Position numbers and translations under genes: made by a program
Notes under the pieces: model-generated
Database searches by the model: none
What the model saw: only the letters and a program-made list of their open reading frames with translations
What the model was told of the DNA's origin: nothing
In this document: positions 4,084 through 61,145 of the stretch, one piece after another
Layout of the letters: every line of letters starts with the position of its first letter
How positions within the stretch are numbered: position 1 is the stretch's first letter
Origin: Alphaproteobacteria bacterium
GTDB taxonomy: Bacteria; Pseudomonadota; Alphaproteobacteria; Rhizobiales; Xanthobacteraceae
Direction: 5' to 3'
NCBI GenBank assembly: GCA_005884685.1
Contig: VBAH01000015.1
Span: forward strand, 1-64,000
Length of the DNA: 64,000 nucleotides

Positions 4084-4260
4084 CTGTCATTCCGGGGCGG
4101 CGCCAAAAGCGCGTTCACGCGCGTCTGCGACGCGCTATGGCGCCGGGCCCGGAATCCATAGCCACATGATTTTCAGTATTGTACGGTCGCGCCGCTGTCG
4201 AGACGACAGTGGTTATGGATTCCCGGCTCGCGAGCTGACGCTCGCGCCCCGGAATGACGG
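4084..4260. repeat. Composite palindromic repeat (family B)
   Basis: CTGTCATTCCGGGG at the left is mirrored by CCCCGGAATGACGG at the right. Inner arms GGAATCCATA and TATGGATTCC flank a short centre, and one half contains a small extra hairpin with CGCGTCTGCGACGCG. It fills the divergent intergenic region between the hydantoinase and the DapA-like gene. Promoters for both must lie in or beside it. Confidence 0.85.
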
Positions 4261-5311: not shown

Positions 5312-7402
5312 ATGCTTGCTCCCAATCCTGGCCGCGACGTCCGCATGGCGGTCGATATCGGCGGCACCTTCACCGACATCGTACTCGAACGCGGCCCCTC
5401 GCGGATCACCCGCAAGGTGCTCACCACCGCGAAGCGCCCCGAGGAGGGCGTGCTCGACGGGGCGCGCCTCGTGCTCGGCGACGCCGGCCTGCACTTCTCC
5501 GACATCGACGTGTTCATTCACGGCACGACGCTCGCCACCAACGCGATCATCGAGCGGCGCGGCGCGCGCACCGCGCTGATCGCCACGGACGGTTTCCGCG
5601 ACACGCTCGAGATCGCGAACGAGAGCCGCTACGACCAGTACGATCTTGCGATCGAGAAGCCGCAGCCGCTGGTGCCGCGCTCGCTGCGCTTCACGGTGGG
5701 CGAGCGCGTCGACGTGCACGGCACGGTGCGGCTCGCGCTCGATGAGGCCGCCGTAGACGCCCTGATCGGGCGGTTGCGGGACAACGGCATCGAGGCGGTC
5801 GCGATCTGCTTCATGCACTCGTATGTGAACCCCGCCCACGAGCAGCGCACAGCGGAAATTCTCAAGGATGCGATGCCGGGTTTGAGCATCACGCTCTCGT
5901 CCGAGGTGTGCCCGGAGATCCGCGAATACGAGCGCACCTCGACGGCGGTGGCGAATGCGTATGTGCAGCCGCTGATGGATGGCTATCTCGCCCGCATGGA
6001 CGAGGCATTGCGCGCCGAGCAGTTCCGCGGCGCGATCTATCTGGTGACCTCCGGCGGCGGGCTGACCTCGATCGACACCGCGCGCAAGTTTCCGGTGCGG
6101 CTGATCGAGTCGGGCCCGGCCGGCGGCGCGATCTTCGCCGCCCAGGTTGCGGCGCGCGCGGCCGAGAAGAAGGTGCTGTCGTTCGACATGGGCGGCACCA
6201 CGGCGAAGATCTGCCTGATCGAGAATTTCGAACCGAACTCGGCGCGCATCTATGAAGTCGATCGCGCGGCGCGCTTCCTCAAAGGGTCGGGGCTGCCGGT
6301 GCGCATCCCGGTGATCGAGATGGTCGAGATCGGCGCGGGCGGCGGCTCGATCGCCAAGGTCGATGCGTTGAAGCGCGTCACCGTCGGCCCGGAAAGCGCA
6401 GGCTCCGAGCCGGGGCCCGCCTGCTACCGCCGCGGCGGTACGCTGCCGACCGTCACCGACGCGGATGTGGCGTTGGGCATGATCGATCCGGCGGCGTTCG
6501 CGGGCGGCACCATTTCGCTCAATCCGGATCTGTCGCGCGCGGCACTTGCCGCCGCGGTCGGCGATCCGCTCGGCTTGTCCCCCGAGACCGCCGCGTATGC
6601 GGTGCACGAAATGGTGTGCGAGAACATGGCGAGCGCGGCGCGCGTGCACGCGGTCGAGCGCGGCGAGGTGGTGAGCGATCATACGCTGATCGCGTTCGGC
6701 GGGGCCGCGCCGCTGCATGCGGCGCGCGTTGCCGAGAAGCTGGGGCTTGCGCGCGTCGTGGTGCCGCCCAATGCCGGCGTCGGATCGGCGGTCGGATTTC
6801 TCGTCGCGCCGATTTCCTACGAGCTGGTGAAGAGCCGCCACATGCGGCTCGACAATTTCGATTTTGCCGGCGCGTCCGCGCTGCTCGCCGGGATGTCGCG
6901 CGATGCGCGCGCGCTGGTCGAGCCGGGCGCACGCGGCGCGCCGGTGACCGAGCGGCGGCTCGCCTACATGCGCTACGTCGGGCAGGGACACGAGATCACG
7001 GTGCCGCTGCCGGTGCGCGATCTCGCCGCCGACGATGCCGCGGCGCTGCGCGACACGTTCGAGCGCGAGTATTCGGTTCTGTTCAAGCGGCCGATCCCCG
7101 GCGCCGCGATCGAGGCGCTGAGTTGGTCCGTGCTGATCTCGACGCAAGCGCATCGGCCGGAGGCCATGACGGCGGCTCCCGAGAAACGCGCACCGTCGCC
7201 CGGTGGCAGCCGCGTTTTCTTCGACGGCCGGTCCGGCGGTTCGATCGACGTGCCGACCTATCGCCGCGCGCGGCTCGAGGCCGGCGCGCGCGTACCCGGT
7301 CCTGCGATCATTGCCGAGGACGAAACCTCGACCTTCATCACGGCAAGCTTCGACGCGCACATCGACGGCGCGGGGTGCATCGTGATGCAGCGGAGGGTGT
7401 GA
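5312..7402 (+). CDS. hyuA: Hydantoinase/oxoprolinase subunit A (N-methylhydantoinase A-like)
   Basis: This is the ATP-binding subunit of an ATP-dependent hydantoinase, oxoprolinase or acetone-carboxylase-like enzyme, 696 residues. It has the ASKHA phosphate loop MAVDIGGTFTDIV near residues 12-24, LSFDMGGTTAKI in the middle, and GPACYRRGG followed by TVTDADV, all diagnostic of HyuA. The first ATG (5312) lacks a clear ribosome site and the internal ATG at 5345 is an alternative. HyuA works with HyuB, which here starts 582 bp downstream. In most relatives the two are directly adjacent; here a DUF559 cassette separates them. Confidence 0.93.
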   Translation: MLAPNPGRDVRMAVDIGGTFTDIVLERGPSRITRKVLTTAKRPEEGVLDGARLVLGDAGLHFSDIDVFIHGTTLATNAIIERRGARTALIATDGFRDTLEIANESRYDQYDLAIEKPQPLVPRSLRFTVGERVDVHGTVRLALDEAAVDALIGRLRDNGIEAVAICFMHSYVNPAHEQRTAEILKDAMPGLSITLSSEVCPEIREYERTSTAVANAYVQPLMDGYLARMDEALRAEQFRGAIYLVTSGGGLTSIDTARKFPVRLIESGPAGGAIFAAQVAARAAEKKVLSFDMGGTTAKICLIENFEPNSARIYEVDRAARFLKGSGLPVRIPVIEMVEIGAGGGSIAKVDALKRVTVGPESAGSEPGPACYRRGGTLPTVTDADVALGMIDPAAFAGGTISLNPDLSRAALAAAVGDPLGLSPETAAYAVHEMVCENMASAARVHAVERGEVVSDHTLIAFGGAAPLHAARVAEKLGLARVVVPPNAGVGSAVGFLVAPISYELVKSRHMRLDNFDFAGASALLAGMSRDARALVEPGARGAPVTERRLAYMRYVGQGHEITVPLPVRDLAADDAAALRDTFEREYSVLFKRPIPGAAIEALSWSVLISTQAHRPEAMTAAPEKRAPSPGGSRVFFDGRSGGSIDVPTYRRARLEAGARVPGPAIIAEDETSTFITASFDAHIDGAGCIVMQRRV

Positions 7403-7414
7403 TGTGCGGGAGAC

Positions 7415-7481
7415 GAGCCGCACACTCGGTCACCCTCCCCTGGAGGGGGAGGGTCGCCGGCGAAGCCGGCGGGGTGGGGTG
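7415..7481. repeat. Left inverted repeat of the DUF559 cassette
   Basis: A 16-bp outer arm (7415-7430) is followed by a 50-bp palindromic unit (7432-7481). The unit has a 9-bp hairpin ACCCTCCCC/GGGGAGGGT (7432-7454) and a second hairpin CGCCGGC-GAA-GCCGGCG (7455-7471), then GGGTGGGGTG. It is the reverse complement of the unit at 7900-7951 except that the second hairpin has a different stem sequence. Confidence 0.9.
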
Positions 7482-7489
7482 ACAATGTT

Positions 7490-7987
7490 ATGGTGACGCG
7501 ACGACCTATCGACAGCTTCCGGCGCGAAACAGCGCGGCGTCTGCGCGCGAGCAGCACGGCCGCGGAGATCCTGCTGTGGCGAAAGCTGCGCTTGCTGGAA
7601 ACCAAAGGAACGCATTTCCGTCGGCAAGTACCGATCGGCCCATACGTCGCGGATTTTGCCTGTTTGGCATCGCGCCTTGTCATTGAAATCGACGGTTCGC
7701 AGCATGGCGACGAGCCAAACAGACTACGAGACGAGAATCGTACCCGCTGGCTGGAGTCTGAGGGATATCGTGTTGTCCGTTTCTGGAACAACGACATCAC
7801 GCAGAATCCGGCCGGTGTTCTCGACCTGATTTATGCGGCACTCTACGGGAGCCGCGACACGGAGCCCAAAGTGCTCAAGCATCGCCGCAAACGCGGCTTC
7901 ACCCCACCCCGGCGCGCTTCGCGCGCCGACCCTCCCCCTCCAGGGGAGGGTAGCACCGAGCGCGCGGCTCGGAAGGTGCACTCATGA
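7490..7987 (+). CDS. DUF559 domain protein (Vsr/PD-(D/E)XK-like endonuclease fold)
   Basis: This 165-residue protein has a DUF559 core at about residues 10-120. The recognisable parts are RRLRASSTAAEILLW-like N-terminal residues, HFRRQVPIGPYVADFAC, LVIEIDGSQH (acidic residues of the nuclease-like site) and YRVVRFWNNDI. The fold is related to very-short-patch-repair endonucleases, but a cellular role is not established. About 30 C-terminal residues (from around HRRKRGFTPPRR) are a translation of the right inverted repeat and flank. The stop TGA overlaps the hyuB ATG as ATGA, so translation may be coupled to hyuB. The gene interrupts the hyuAB pair and was probably acquired. Confidence 0.85.
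   Translation: MVTRRPIDSFRRETARRLRASSTAAEILLWRKLRLLETKGTHFRRQVPIGPYVADFACLASRLVIEIDGSQHGDEPNRLRDENRTRWLESEGYRVVRFWNNDITQNPAGVLDLIYAALYGSRDTEPKVLKHRRKRGFTPPRRASRADPPPPGEGSTERAARKVHS
7900..7970. repeat. Right inverted repeat of the DUF559 cassette
   Basis: This is the mirror of the left repeat: CACCCCACCCC, a hairpin CGGCGCGC-TTC-GCGCGCCG (7910-7928), ACCCTCCCC...GGGGAGGGT, a 3-nt spacer and a 16-bp outer arm (7955-7970). The hairpin stem differs in sequence from the left copy but is still perfectly paired. The DUF559 reading frame runs through it. Confidence 0.9.
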
Positions 7988-9654
7988 CCTCCGCCACCCA
8001 GCTCATCGACCTGCAGATCATGTGGAACCGGCTGATCGCCGTGGTGGAGGAGCAGGCGCAGGTGCTGATGCGCACCGCGTTCTCGCCGATCGTGCGCGAG
8101 TGCGGCGACCTTTCGGCCGGCGTGTTCGATCGCCGCGGCCGCATGCTCGCGCAGGCCGTGACCGGCACGCCGGGCCACGTCAACTCGATGGCGGAATCGG
8201 TGAAGCACTTCATCCGCCATTTCCCGCTTGAGACGATGAAGCCCGGCGACGCCTACATCACCAACGACCCCTGGATGGGGACCGGCCACCTGAACGATTT
8301 CGTCATCACGACGCCCGCGTTCAACTCGAAGGGCGAGCTGGTCGCGCTGTTCTCCTGCACCAGTCACCTGATGGACATCGGCGGCATCGGCTTCGGGCCG
8401 GACGCGACCGACGTGTTCATGGAAGGCCTCTACATCCCGATGCTCAAGCTGATCGATCAGGGCACCGTGAACGAGACCCTGATGGCGATGATCCGCGCCA
8501 ACACGCGCCTGCCGATCGACACCGAGGGCGACACCTATTCGCTCGCCGCCTGCAACGATGTCGGCGCCAGGCGTCTCGCCGAGATGATGGACGAGTTCGC
8601 TATCGACAGTCTCGATCCGCTCGCCGAGCATATCGTCGCGCGTTCGCGCGAGGCCGTGATGGCGGAGATCGCGAAACTGCCGCGCGGCACCTGGCGCAAC
8701 GAGATGGTCGTCGACGGTTACGATGCGCCGGTGACGCTGGCGGCGACACTGACCGTGTCGGACAGCGGCATCCATGTCGACTACACCGGCACCTCGCCGC
8801 AATCGCGCTACGGCATCAACGTGCCGCTCGCCTACACCACCGCCTACACGGTGTTCGGGCTCGGCTGCGTGGTGGCGAGCCAGATCCCGAACAATGCGGG
8901 ATCGCTAGGGGTCCTCACCGTGTCGGCGCCGGCCGGCTGCATCCTCAATGCGCCGAAGCCCGCGCCGGTCGCGATCCGCCATGTGACCGGACAGATGCTC
9001 CCCGATGTGGTGTTCGGCTGCCTGCGCCAGCTTGTTCCCGAACGCGTGCCGGCGGAAGGCACGTCGTGCCTGTGGAATCTGATCGTGCGCGGCGAAACGC
9101 AATCGGGCGCGGGCGGCAACTACGGCTTCTCGATGGCGATCACCTCGAATGGCGGCACCGGCGCGCGGCCCAACAAGGACGGACTGTCGGCGACCGCGTA
9201 TCCGAGCGGCGTGCGCGGCACGCCGGTGGAGATCGCCGAGAGCCAGACGCCGCTGATCTTCTGGAAGAAGGAGCTGCGGCCGCAATCGGGCGGGGCCGGG
9301 CGCACGCAGGGCGGCCACGGTCAGGTGATCGAGATCGGCAGCGGCATCGATCGGCCATGGGACATTCTGGCGGCGTTCGACCGCATCGAGCACCCGGCGC
9401 GCGGGCGCGCGGGCGGCCAGGACGGGGCCGCGGGTTATGTCGGACTGAAGTCCGGGCTGAAGATGCGCGGCAAGGGTTTCCAGAGCGTACCGCCGCACGA
9501 CCGGCTCGTGGTGCTCACGCCGGGCGGCGGCGGCATCGGCGCGCCCGGCGAGCGCGCGTCCGAGCGGGTTGCGCGCGATCTCGCGGACGAGCTGGTGTCG
9601 CCCGACCGGGCGCGCTCGCTCTACGGTTACACCGGCGCGAAGGCCGCGGAGTGA
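7984..9654 (+). CDS. hyuB: Hydantoinase/oxoprolinase subunit B
   Basis: This is the catalytic partner of HyuA, 556 residues. Typical HyuB features are LQIMWNRLIAVVEEQAQVLMRTAFSPIVRE at the N-terminus (residues about 8-37), GDAYITNDPWMGTGHLNDF, GGIGFGPDATDVFMEG, and a glycine-rich C-terminal GGGGIGAP. The ATG overlaps the stop of the DUF559 gene (ATGA). Before the insertion the start was probably placed just after hyuA in the same manner. The reaction is ATP-dependent opening of a lactam or hydantoin ring; the substrate is undetermined. Confidence 0.93.
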   Translation: MTSATQLIDLQIMWNRLIAVVEEQAQVLMRTAFSPIVRECGDLSAGVFDRRGRMLAQAVTGTPGHVNSMAESVKHFIRHFPLETMKPGDAYITNDPWMGTGHLNDFVITTPAFNSKGELVALFSCTSHLMDIGGIGFGPDATDVFMEGLYIPMLKLIDQGTVNETLMAMIRANTRLPIDTEGDTYSLAACNDVGARRLAEMMDEFAIDSLDPLAEHIVARSREAVMAEIAKLPRGTWRNEMVVDGYDAPVTLAATLTVSDSGIHVDYTGTSPQSRYGINVPLAYTTAYTVFGLGCVVASQIPNNAGSLGVLTVSAPAGCILNAPKPAPVAIRHVTGQMLPDVVFGCLRQLVPERVPAEGTSCLWNLIVRGETQSGAGGNYGFSMAITSNGGTGARPNKDGLSATAYPSGVRGTPVEIAESQTPLIFWKKELRPQSGGAGRTQGGHGQVIEIGSGIDRPWDILAAFDRIEHPARGRAGGQDGAAGYVGLKSGLKMRGKGFQSVPPHDRLVVLTPGGGGIGAPGERASERVARDLADELVSPDRARSLYGYTGAKAAE

Positions 9655-15120: not shown

Positions 15121-15270
15121 GCTGTCATCCCGGCCGAGCCTCAAGCGCGTTTACGCGCGTCTGCTACGCGCTATGGCGAGAGCCGGGACCCATTTATTCC
15201 AATGCGCCGGAGCCGGATTTGTGGCGCGATGGATCCCGGATAGCCGCTTCGCGGCTTCCGGGATGACAGG
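15121..15270. repeat. Composite palindromic repeat (family B) between livG and livF
   Basis: GCTGTCATCCCGG at the left is mirrored by CCGGGATGACAGG at the right. Each half carries its own smaller hairpins, including GCGCGTTTACGCGC and GCCGCTTCGCGGC. It sits inside the liv operon. Confidence 0.85.
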
Positions 15271-25672: not shown

Positions 25673-25796
25673 CTGTCATTCCGGGGCCGAGCGAAGCGAG
25701 GAGCCCGGAATCCATAAACACGAGACCGTCCGTATCACGCAGTATTGCGGTTATGGATTCCGGGCTCGGCGCTGCGCGCCGCCCCGGAATGACAAC
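25673..25796. repeat. Palindromic intergenic repeat (family B)
   Basis: CTGTCATTCCGGGG is mirrored by CCCCGGAATGACA. Inner arms GGAATCCATAA and TTATGGATTCC surround a 30-bp centre. It lies between the convergent L,D-transpeptidase and secA genes and is a candidate two-way terminator. Confidence 0.85.
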
Positions 25797-29820: not shown

Positions 29821-29994
29821 TTGTCATTCCGGGGCCTCGCCAACGGGTCCGGCCTTTGGCCGGCCCGATGACAGGCTCCGCGAGGAGCCCGGAATCCATA
29901 ACCCCGATGACCGGGGGCAGGCACGGCTATCAAAATTGCTGCTGTTGTGGTTATGGATTCCGGGCTCGCGCCTTTCGGCGCGCCCCGGAATGAC
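29821..29994. repeat. Composite palindromic repeat (family B) upstream of argJ
   Basis: TTGTCATTCCGGGG is mirrored by CCCCGGAATGACA, with GGAATCCATAACC and GGTTATGGATTCC inner arms. It ends 5 bp before the argJ ATG, so it occupies the whole leader and could hide or expose the start by folding. Confidence 0.85.
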
Positions 29995-41726: not shown

Positions 41727-41836
41727 CTGTCATCCCGGGCGGGCGAGCGCAGCGAGAGAGACCCGGGATCCATCGTCCCAAACGCGGCGCCGCGTTACAT
41801 GGGTCCCGGCTCTCGCTGCGCTCGGCCGGGATGACG
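41727..41836. repeat. Palindromic intergenic repeat (family B) between rph and rdgB
   Basis: GCTGTCATCCCGGG is mirrored by GGCCGGGATGACG, with GGGATCCAT and ATGGGTCCC inner arms and GAGCGCAGCGAG hairpins. It occupies almost all of the rph-rdgB gap. Confidence 0.85.
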
Positions 41837-61040: not shown

Positions 61041-61145
61041 CTGTCATCCCGGAAGCCGCGAAGCGGCTATCCGGGACCCATCTCTCACATTCTCGACCGT
61101 TGCTTGATGGATCCCGGCTCTCGCTGCGCTCGGCCGGGATGACAG
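61041..61145. repeat. Palindromic intergenic repeat (family B)
   Basis: CTGTCATCCCGG starts immediately after the acetyltransferase stop codon, and CCGGGATGACAG closes it. The inner arms are GGGACCCATC and GATGGATCCC. It separates convergent genes. Confidence 0.85.

Follow-up and report, generated by a model that had tools for sequence, protein, structure and literature searches.

In the window analysed here, a stretch of 64,000 nucleotides from an alphaproteobacterium of the Xanthobacteraceae, a small DUF559 gene enclosed by two inverted hairpin repeats has been inserted between hyuA and hyuB, and the same association was found in the family, where 81 of the 93 small DUF559 loci that could be evaluated have such repeats on both sides, compared with none of 105 control open reading frames (ORFs). 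DUF559 genes therefore do carry such repeats more often than other genes, a comparison that a preliminary description of this DNA had proposed. The arrangement is consistent with a nuclease-carrying REP cassette, in which a free-standing DUF559 nuclease (Vsr/EDxHD fold) and two co-travelling inverted double-hairpin arms would spread in a homing-like manner, a reading to which we give a little better than an even chance.

Structure and insertion of the hyuA/hyuB cassette

The gene encodes 165 aa, matches PF04480 with an E-value of 7.8e-36 (122.7 bits against a Pfam curated cut-off of 20.6) and is located between genes for Hydantoinase_A and Hydantoinase_B. It is framed, as first described, by inverted repeats, and in a BLAST self-match the two arms are 88% alike as an inverted pair (Table 1). 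Read from the outside inwards, an arm of this type, type A, consists of ~18-20 bases of common outer sequence, the fixed hairpin ACCCTCCCCTGGAGGGGGAGGGT (hairpin 1), a variable second hairpin (hairpin 2) and the tail GGGTGGGGTGA.

Table 1. Coordinates of the cassette and its neighbours in the window.
Feature	Position	Strand	Evidence and remarks
Left arm, type A	7414-7482	+	Outer inverted part 7414-7431, hairpin 1, hairpin 2, tail; fold z -4.0
Left hairpin 1, ACCCTCCCCTGGAGGGGGAGGGT, type A	7432-7454	+	23 genome copies of the 24-base pattern
Left hairpin 2, variable stem CGCCGGC-GAA-GCCGGCG	7455-7471	+	DNA fold; pairing across 68 distinct sequences
Left inner tail, GCGGGGTGGGGTGA	7469-7482	+	Kept in short copies; motif alone at chance level in the window
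DUF559 nuclease gene	7490-7987	+	Domain at 7523-7843; final ~29 codons within or past the right arm
Right arm, inverted copy	7899-7971	-	Order tail, hairpin 2, hairpin 1, outer part 7952-7971
Right hairpin 2, CGGCGCGC-TTC-GCGCGCCG	7910-7928	-	DNA fold
Right hairpin 1, same sequence as the left one	7929-7951	-	0 mismatches
hyuA (hydantoinase/oxoprolinase A), left neighbour of the insertion	5312-7402	+	PF01968, E = 3.8e-85
hyuB (hydantoinase B), right neighbour of the insertion	7984-9654	+	PF02538, E = 1.4e-151

When folded as single-stranded DNA, the stretches 7422-7490 and 7895-7960 form two hairpins each (z = -4.0 and -5.8) and none of 200 shuffles folds as well. Hairpin 1 is the same at both ends (shuffles of the window expect a mean of 0), while hairpin 2 is unlike between the ends and fully paired in both, so that the earlier remark on stems which differ between ends yet pair completely applies to hairpin 2. 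The second hairpin takes 68 distinct forms in the 83 type A arms that were read, and the outer stem reaches at least 5 bp in 41 of these 68 sequences (shuffled mean 1.9, maximum 6). Pairing is kept while the sequence changes, and palindrome-correcting repair could yield the same as selection; of the proposal that the variable hairpins are under selection for their fold, pairing far above chance stands, and palindrome repair could explain it equally well. At another locus (L267) an element of ~200 bases with the ends CTAAGGCGTGCACACATCT lies within the loop region of hairpin 1, and a CCCCTTGTGGG stretch is repeated on its two sides.

The stop of the DUF559 gene overlaps the start of hyuB in the sequence ATGA at 7984-7987. 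This overlap, pointed out earlier, is real and looks incidental, since the ~29 C-terminal codons are read from the right arm or from sequence past it and a stop falls inside the translated range in 5 of 20 translated relatives (L184, L185, L187, L190 and L191). No RAYT was seen adjoining the cassette, in line with the preliminary description, and the window's genome has one marginal Y1_Tnp match elsewhere (23.9 bits, cut-off 23), in a locus of 3.3 kb with three CGTCAT motifs and no CCCTC-class motif; RAYT was rejected as the mobiliser on these grounds. The same genome holds three further small DUF559 loci (L002, L003 and L004), L002 with a clear pair of another subfamily, and as the domain is matched in two frames in the other two, these two of the four small DUF559 copies in the genome are probably broken.

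The AlphaFold2 model of the protein (pLDDT 82) is predicted well in the core and poorly in the tail, and the nearest solved folds are 3hrl, another DUF559 protein (Z 13.8), I-Bth0305I (3r3p, Z 12.3) and Vsr (1cw0, Z 10.8). The residues E26, D55, E66, H72 and D81 are invariant in 21 sequences, and the conserved E, D, H and D we take to be the EDxHD residues; both the fold and the conserved residues of the EDxHD/Vsr superfamily are present in the window protein. The part of PMC12907096 consulted served in part to decide which residues of that superfamily are catalytic. Identity as a Vsr mismatch endonuclease was rejected (18.1 bits with TIGR00632, cut-off 97.85), as was membership of a defence system, for which weak partial matches only were obtained (DpdF, 1.1e-5). 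Rfam returned a single match of 16 bits, far below its cut-off of 88.

The cassette is an insertion, because in one of the two congeners compared, G056, the hyuA stop directly joins the hyuB start and no cassette is present; the cassette accordingly splits a pair of adjacent genes, as had been claimed. In the other congener, G012, a different palindromic element is situated at this junction. Empty sites of cassette-type elements, a point raised by the preliminary description, were found at hyuA/hyuB (G056), at pheS-pheT and at a short type A element on contig C3 of the window's genome, the site of which is empty in both congeners. Around the C3 element ~20 bases past hairpin 1 on either side are also absent from the empty sites, so the element is longer than its hairpins. 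When other short elements were compared, one was found in common with G012, and five sites have another palindromic element in that genome. Recent insertions were also looked for in a plasmid collection by comparison with near-identical records, of which 42 matched and none covered 80% of the query.

These borders bear on the possibility that the nuclease is a conventional transposase which excises the cassette and inserts it at new places with target duplication. Terminal inverted arms would fit such a process, as would the outer sequence of an element whose site is empty in two congeners, a possible 6-base target duplication (CATGCG) at C3 and the spread of 21 type A cassettes over 8 different flank clusters, whereas no duplication of this type is evident at hyuA/hyuB. 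A weak TnsA-like fold similarity (Z 7.3) has to be set against the fact that Z values under 8 may reflect a common arrangement only, and Pfam gives DUF559 and MTES_1575 and nothing else for the window protein. As the reuse of the same gaps and the arms left over there (see below) fit site-specific reinvasion better, conventional transposition appears to us the least probable of the readings considered here.

Small nuclease genes and their repeat classes

PF04480 is present in 59 of the 61 genomes of the family, as a small class, often with several members per genome, and a large class with open frames of about 400-500 aa in most cases and usually one per genome. The large loci (L102-L121) are without flanking repeats and are likely a separate host gene. 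The association was scored as the best inverted match between the 400 bases on either side of the domain, with a threshold of 16. The small class reached this threshold in 33 of 39 loci, in 63 of 72 evaluable ones with the next loci added and then in 18 of 21 more, the remaining 12 of the 93 being under it. These loci, including the window's own, were picked by match rank and not at random, the 21 later ones came mainly from genomes rich in type A hairpins, and two loci at contig edges (L032 and L083) were left out before counting. The controls were the 105 other ORFs (270-750 bases) of the same regions, large DUF559 genes, none of 20 of which reached the threshold, and positions in these regions, where 1 of 1079 did.

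In a class-wide sample, PF04480 was matched in 43 of 115 genomes, and loci from other families carry arm pairs in 18 of 29 cases (controls 0 of 56). Named carriers with arm pairs are found in Bradyrhizobium, Pseudolabrys, Mesorhizobium erdmanii, Sphingopyxis and Sinorhizobium and, among gammaproteobacteria, in Rehaibacterium terrae. These carriers stand outside the 93 loci and were found by peptide patterns that include the repeat-derived protein tail, a search biased towards cassettes; 28 of 31 scored loci are such named loci, 22 of the 31 reach the threshold and several of those below it match by the protein tail only. No arm pair was seen at a further Sphingopyxis locus. Three plasmid loci were read, of which that of Sinorhizobium (L245) has a pair with a score of 36, and neither the Azospirillum locus (L244, 12) nor the locus of an E. 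coli record (L246, 9) has one. The literature searched, which comprised open-licence papers only so that absence proves little, did not mention an association between nuclease and repeat.

A second nuclease family showed a similar arrangement. PF01541 is found in 41 of 41 genomes, UvrC counted in, and small GIY-YIG genes are situated between inverted hairpin repeats in 32 of 50 loci (16 of the first 30 and 16 of the later 20), compared with 0 of 20 for UvrC genes taken as control; the other 18 loci are under the threshold. The repeats belong to another class. Of the GIY-YIG arms, 31 of 32 fit CGTC-type patterns and none fits the C-tract class, one locus fitting neither, while the DUF559 arms fit the C-tract class only in 77 of 81 loci and both patterns in the other 4. 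With these 4 left out, the unambiguous loci divide as 77:0 against 0:31 (Fisher p = 9e-28). The classes are broad text patterns of tags and tail motifs, drawn up once the first 30 GIY-YIG loci had been seen; among the 20 later loci, all 16 with arms are of the CGTC class. Spread over 41 flank clusters, the 50 GIY-YIG loci are bound to shared sites to a lesser degree than those of DUF559.

Recurrent sites, arm lineages and gene-less copies

At a protein identity cut-off of 40% for the flanking genes, 113 DUF559 loci form 58 flank clusters, two of which are large, glyQ/glyS with 18 loci and pheS/pheT with 16. According to tblastn, 14 of the former lie between glyQ and glyS and 4 have one of the two genes only, and 15 of the latter lie between pheS and pheT, L296 having neither gene beside it; smaller clusters occupy, by Pfam, the gap between MTHFR and a homocysteine methyltransferase and that between cysS and an HMGL-like gene. 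By coordinates, DUF559 adjoins pheS in at least 17 of the 58 family genomes with pheS. The 29 readable pheS-pheT gaps consist of 10 that are closed, 9 with DUF559 and 10 others, five of these with 121-200 bases (single hairpins and other palindromes among them) and five with unrelated small genes, so that recurrent site-specific occupancy together with empty alleles, as known for homing, is seen at this site. In three congeners, all with DUF559 in the gap, the DUF559 proteins are mutually 49-58% identical. The C-terminus of pheS, by contrast, shares 91% (G012) and 90% (G000) identity with its counterpart in G056, which makes replacement rather than descent likely. The small open frames without CCCTC-class motifs in the pheS-pheT gap (L370, L373, L383, L392 and L393) mark it as a general insertion hot spot.

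In the glyQ-glyS gap cassettes of both type A and type E occur, in some cases together with arms of the other type. At L196 a type A pair encloses a type E cassette, at L290 a right arm of type A adjoins a type E cassette and at L187 a left arm of type E adjoins a type A cassette; L043, beside glyQ, likewise combines a type E cassette and a right arm of type A. Cassettes thus reoccupy the same gaps between conserved genes and arms of a second type are left at or around some of them. The recurrent sites may in part be old inheritance with loss. At one locus (L071) a short CCCTC-class pair of another subtype is located in frame within glyS, adding ~40-45 residues, and adjoins a type A cassette.

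Mixed occupancy was also found in Bradyrhizobium, where the gap that separates an SDR gene from glpK was analysed at 30 loci from 79 genomes searched, and could be read at 23. Ten of these 23 hold a type A DUF559 gene (7 intact, 3 broken) and 13 do not, having instead a short type A pair, a collapsed pair or elements of other families, with one nearly empty. In L251 the extra hairpin of the left arm and the inner spacer of the right element are retained, which we read as the pattern expected from loss of the gene between two direct arms.

The cassettes can be read in another way, the hairpins being RNA structures, such as terminators or stabilisers, kept by selection beside small genes inserted into operons, and the nuclease a domestic repair enzyme. 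A palindromic element or its collapsed remainder is present in 22 of the 23 SDR-glpK slots, the remaining one holding a possible fragment, and the median dN/dS of DUF559 over 21 pairs, 0.12, indicates purifying selection; both would be expected of a structure and an enzyme in the service of the host. A model for such an enzyme is VsrA of Caulobacter (CCNA_02930), which shares with the window protein the DUF559 domain name and a Vsr-like fold and, in the part of PMC12907096 consulted, has a proposed role in mismatch repair tied to cytosine methylation, a reading different from the one given here to the cassette nuclease; the words 'inverted repeat' and 'palindrom' are absent from the main text of that article. 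This explanation has to account for a T-tract scan that found a terminator-like T tract at neither window arm, for cassettes within pheS-pheT and glyQ-glyS, where strong termination should be harmful, and for a window protein far under the Vsr cut-off (see above), and it leaves the dependence of repeat class on nuclease family unexplained. We consider it quite unlikely.

A comparison of protein identity with arm similarity between genomes revealed that arm and nuclease lineages go together. For 63 loci the correlation was 0.255 (rho; maximum of 300 permutations 0.12), and in 1800 pairs at different genomic sites only it was weaker, 0.198, a value not reached in any of 500 permutations; as these take no account of tree structure, they give no strict probability. 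Simple vertical inheritance through shared sites appears insufficient, as the correlation persists at different sites. Copies within one genome are no closer to each other than to others (0.507 against 0.503), which means that genomes hold several unrelated cassette lineages, and in 42 same-genome pairs of loci with arms no near-identical cassettes were found at two sites, the best pair being 82% identical and the rest at most 59%.

Arms of type A also occur without a gene. In the window's genome (5.39 Mb, 107 contigs) hairpin 1 has 23 copies at up to 3 mismatches (reversed control 0), and seven short inverted pairs, in which the two copies of hairpin 1 start 107-118 bases from each other and have the outside-in orientation of the cassette, represent gene-less copies with the same ends, as would be looked for in a MITE-type element. 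Their spacers and second hairpins vary from copy to copy, in contrast to a recently amplified MITE. Within the family, hairpin 1 (at most 1 mismatch) is present in 24 of 61 genomes, often as short pairs, and one genome has as many as 65 copies. Fifteen genomes are rich in type A, with 4 or more hairpins of this type. At the loci examined, which cover all but a few of the matches in these genomes, 5 of the 15 showed an intact type A DUF559, compared with 1 of 46 other genomes, 1 showed a type A remnant and 9 showed no type A DUF559, so that the link at genome level between the number of type A repeats and an intact type A DUF559 is only partial. The DUF559 remnant in G012 belongs to a type E cassette, next to which a type A arm is situated, and in G042 the arms of the DUF559 locus L280 are close to type A and were scored as another subtype.

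The frequency of gene-less short pairs and the 9 repeat-rich genomes in which no type A DUF559 was found would agree with hairpin pairs that are REP or MITE elements and owe their movement to a different agent, such as a Y1 transposase encoded elsewhere or host recombination, with the nuclease as caught cargo, and the one marginal Y1_Tnp match of the genome could be counted in the same direction. From such a process varied cargo would be expected, whereas two nuclease families recur, each with its own repeat class, in loci that were, it should be said, picked by nuclease match; no such pair surrounds any of the 105 other ORFs of the same regions, and arms and nuclease lineages co-vary across sites too. 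Unlikely as we judge it, a nuclease carried as a passenger is the alternative to which we give most weight.

Proposed mechanism and comparison with known systems

Returning to the nuclease-carrying REP cassette, the mechanism that we infer, next to the observed association, insertion and mixed occupancy, would start with a nuclease recognising its own arm class, or the junction of a cassette-less allele, and cutting or nicking it. Repair from a cassette-bearing copy could then install arms and gene in a homing-like manner, with the arms serving as landmarks for recognition or repair. Gene-less pairs would be left when the gene that the arms enclose is lost, and might be moved in trans, and by analogy small GIY-YIG nucleases may do likewise for REPs of the CGTC class. 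The spread of type A cassettes over 8 flank clusters and the purifying selection on DUF559 are also counted in favour of this reading. What counts against such homing is the lack, at the loci examined, of a type A DUF559 in 9 of the 15 type A-rich genomes, of recent duplicates within a genome, of a target duplication common to C3 and hyuA/hyuB and of an intact gene in 3 of 10 Bradyrhizobium copies and probably in 2 of the 4 small copies of the window's genome. The variable spacers and second hairpins of the short pairs, and the small DUF559 and GIY-YIG loci under the threshold, are set against it too. The wider proposal, that DUF559/EDxHD and GIY-YIG, two unrelated folds of homing endonucleases, are the mobility enzymes of two big alphaproteobacterial REP classes, is put forward tentatively, as a possibility somewhat short of an even chance.

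GIY-YIG and EDxHD are both listed as families of homing endonucleases in the part of PMC3943268 consulted. The cassette nucleases resemble free-standing homing endonucleases in their folds (that of I-Bth0305I and the GIY-YIG domain PF01541, respectively), in the conserved E, D, H and D residues and in their recurrent occupancy beside conserved genes, and differ from them in that no intron or intein is involved and the gene is bounded by paired hairpins which also exist without it. I-Bth0305I and I-TevI, as treated in the same part of that source, are different in a further respect, as the 165 aa of the window protein leave no room for a long DNA-binding region like theirs.

Likeness to the REPtron is found at another level. 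According to the sections of PMC3733652 consulted, a REPtron is a RAYT gene flanked by GTAG REPs, which are also scattered or paired without the gene, and species with several repeat families have repeat-specific RAYT enzymes. Here, too, the gene of a DNA-acting enzyme lies between REP-like hairpins that are found gene-less, scattered and paired, but a DUF559 or GIY-YIG nuclease takes the place of the Y1 tyrosine transposase, type A arms consist of two hairpins, the second of which varies in its stem, and the cassettes recur in fixed gaps between conserved genes. In the window the gene between the repeats is a DUF559 gene, and a GTAG tag is likewise not a feature of the arms: the right hairpin 1 reads into GTAG by chance, while other hairpin 1 copies in the genome read GGGTAA, GGGTGA, GGGTAT or GGGTGG at this position.

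The CGTC REPs of alphaproteobacteria, as far as the same sections go, apparently lack a dedicated transposase (PMC3733652). Many GIY-YIG arms match the written description of these repeats by Di Nocera et al. (2013), sharing with them a CGTC, TGTC or CCTC tag, a stem that starts with AT, a CCA-type tail and the occurrence as inverted pairs; the DUF559 arms form a separate C/G-tract class. In the main text of PMC3733652 the word 'nuclease' occurs once, and 'DUF' and 'CCCTC' are absent.

REP-like palindromes are common in these genomes, and nuclease genes inside pairs of them are small, testable candidates for mobilisers. If the proposal is true it would explain the spread of these repeats, supply the mobilising enzyme that CGTC REPs reportedly lack and give a role to DUF559 and solo GIY-YIG genes annotated merely as endonuclease-domain proteins. 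It would also show how gaps in conserved operons such as pheS-pheT and glyQ-glyS come to be invaded repeatedly, and homing REPs would then be a kind of mobile element apart from IS elements, RAYT REPtrons and intron or intein homing.

When analysing the remainder of the window, CGTC-like inverted palindrome pairs, with TGTCATCCCGG or TGTCATTCCGGGG outward, were identified at 2506-2602, 4088-4256, 15126-15265 and 25677-25791, and further pairs of this kind at 29825-29992, 41731-41833 and 61045-61141. They are of the class that flanks GIY-YIG genes elsewhere.
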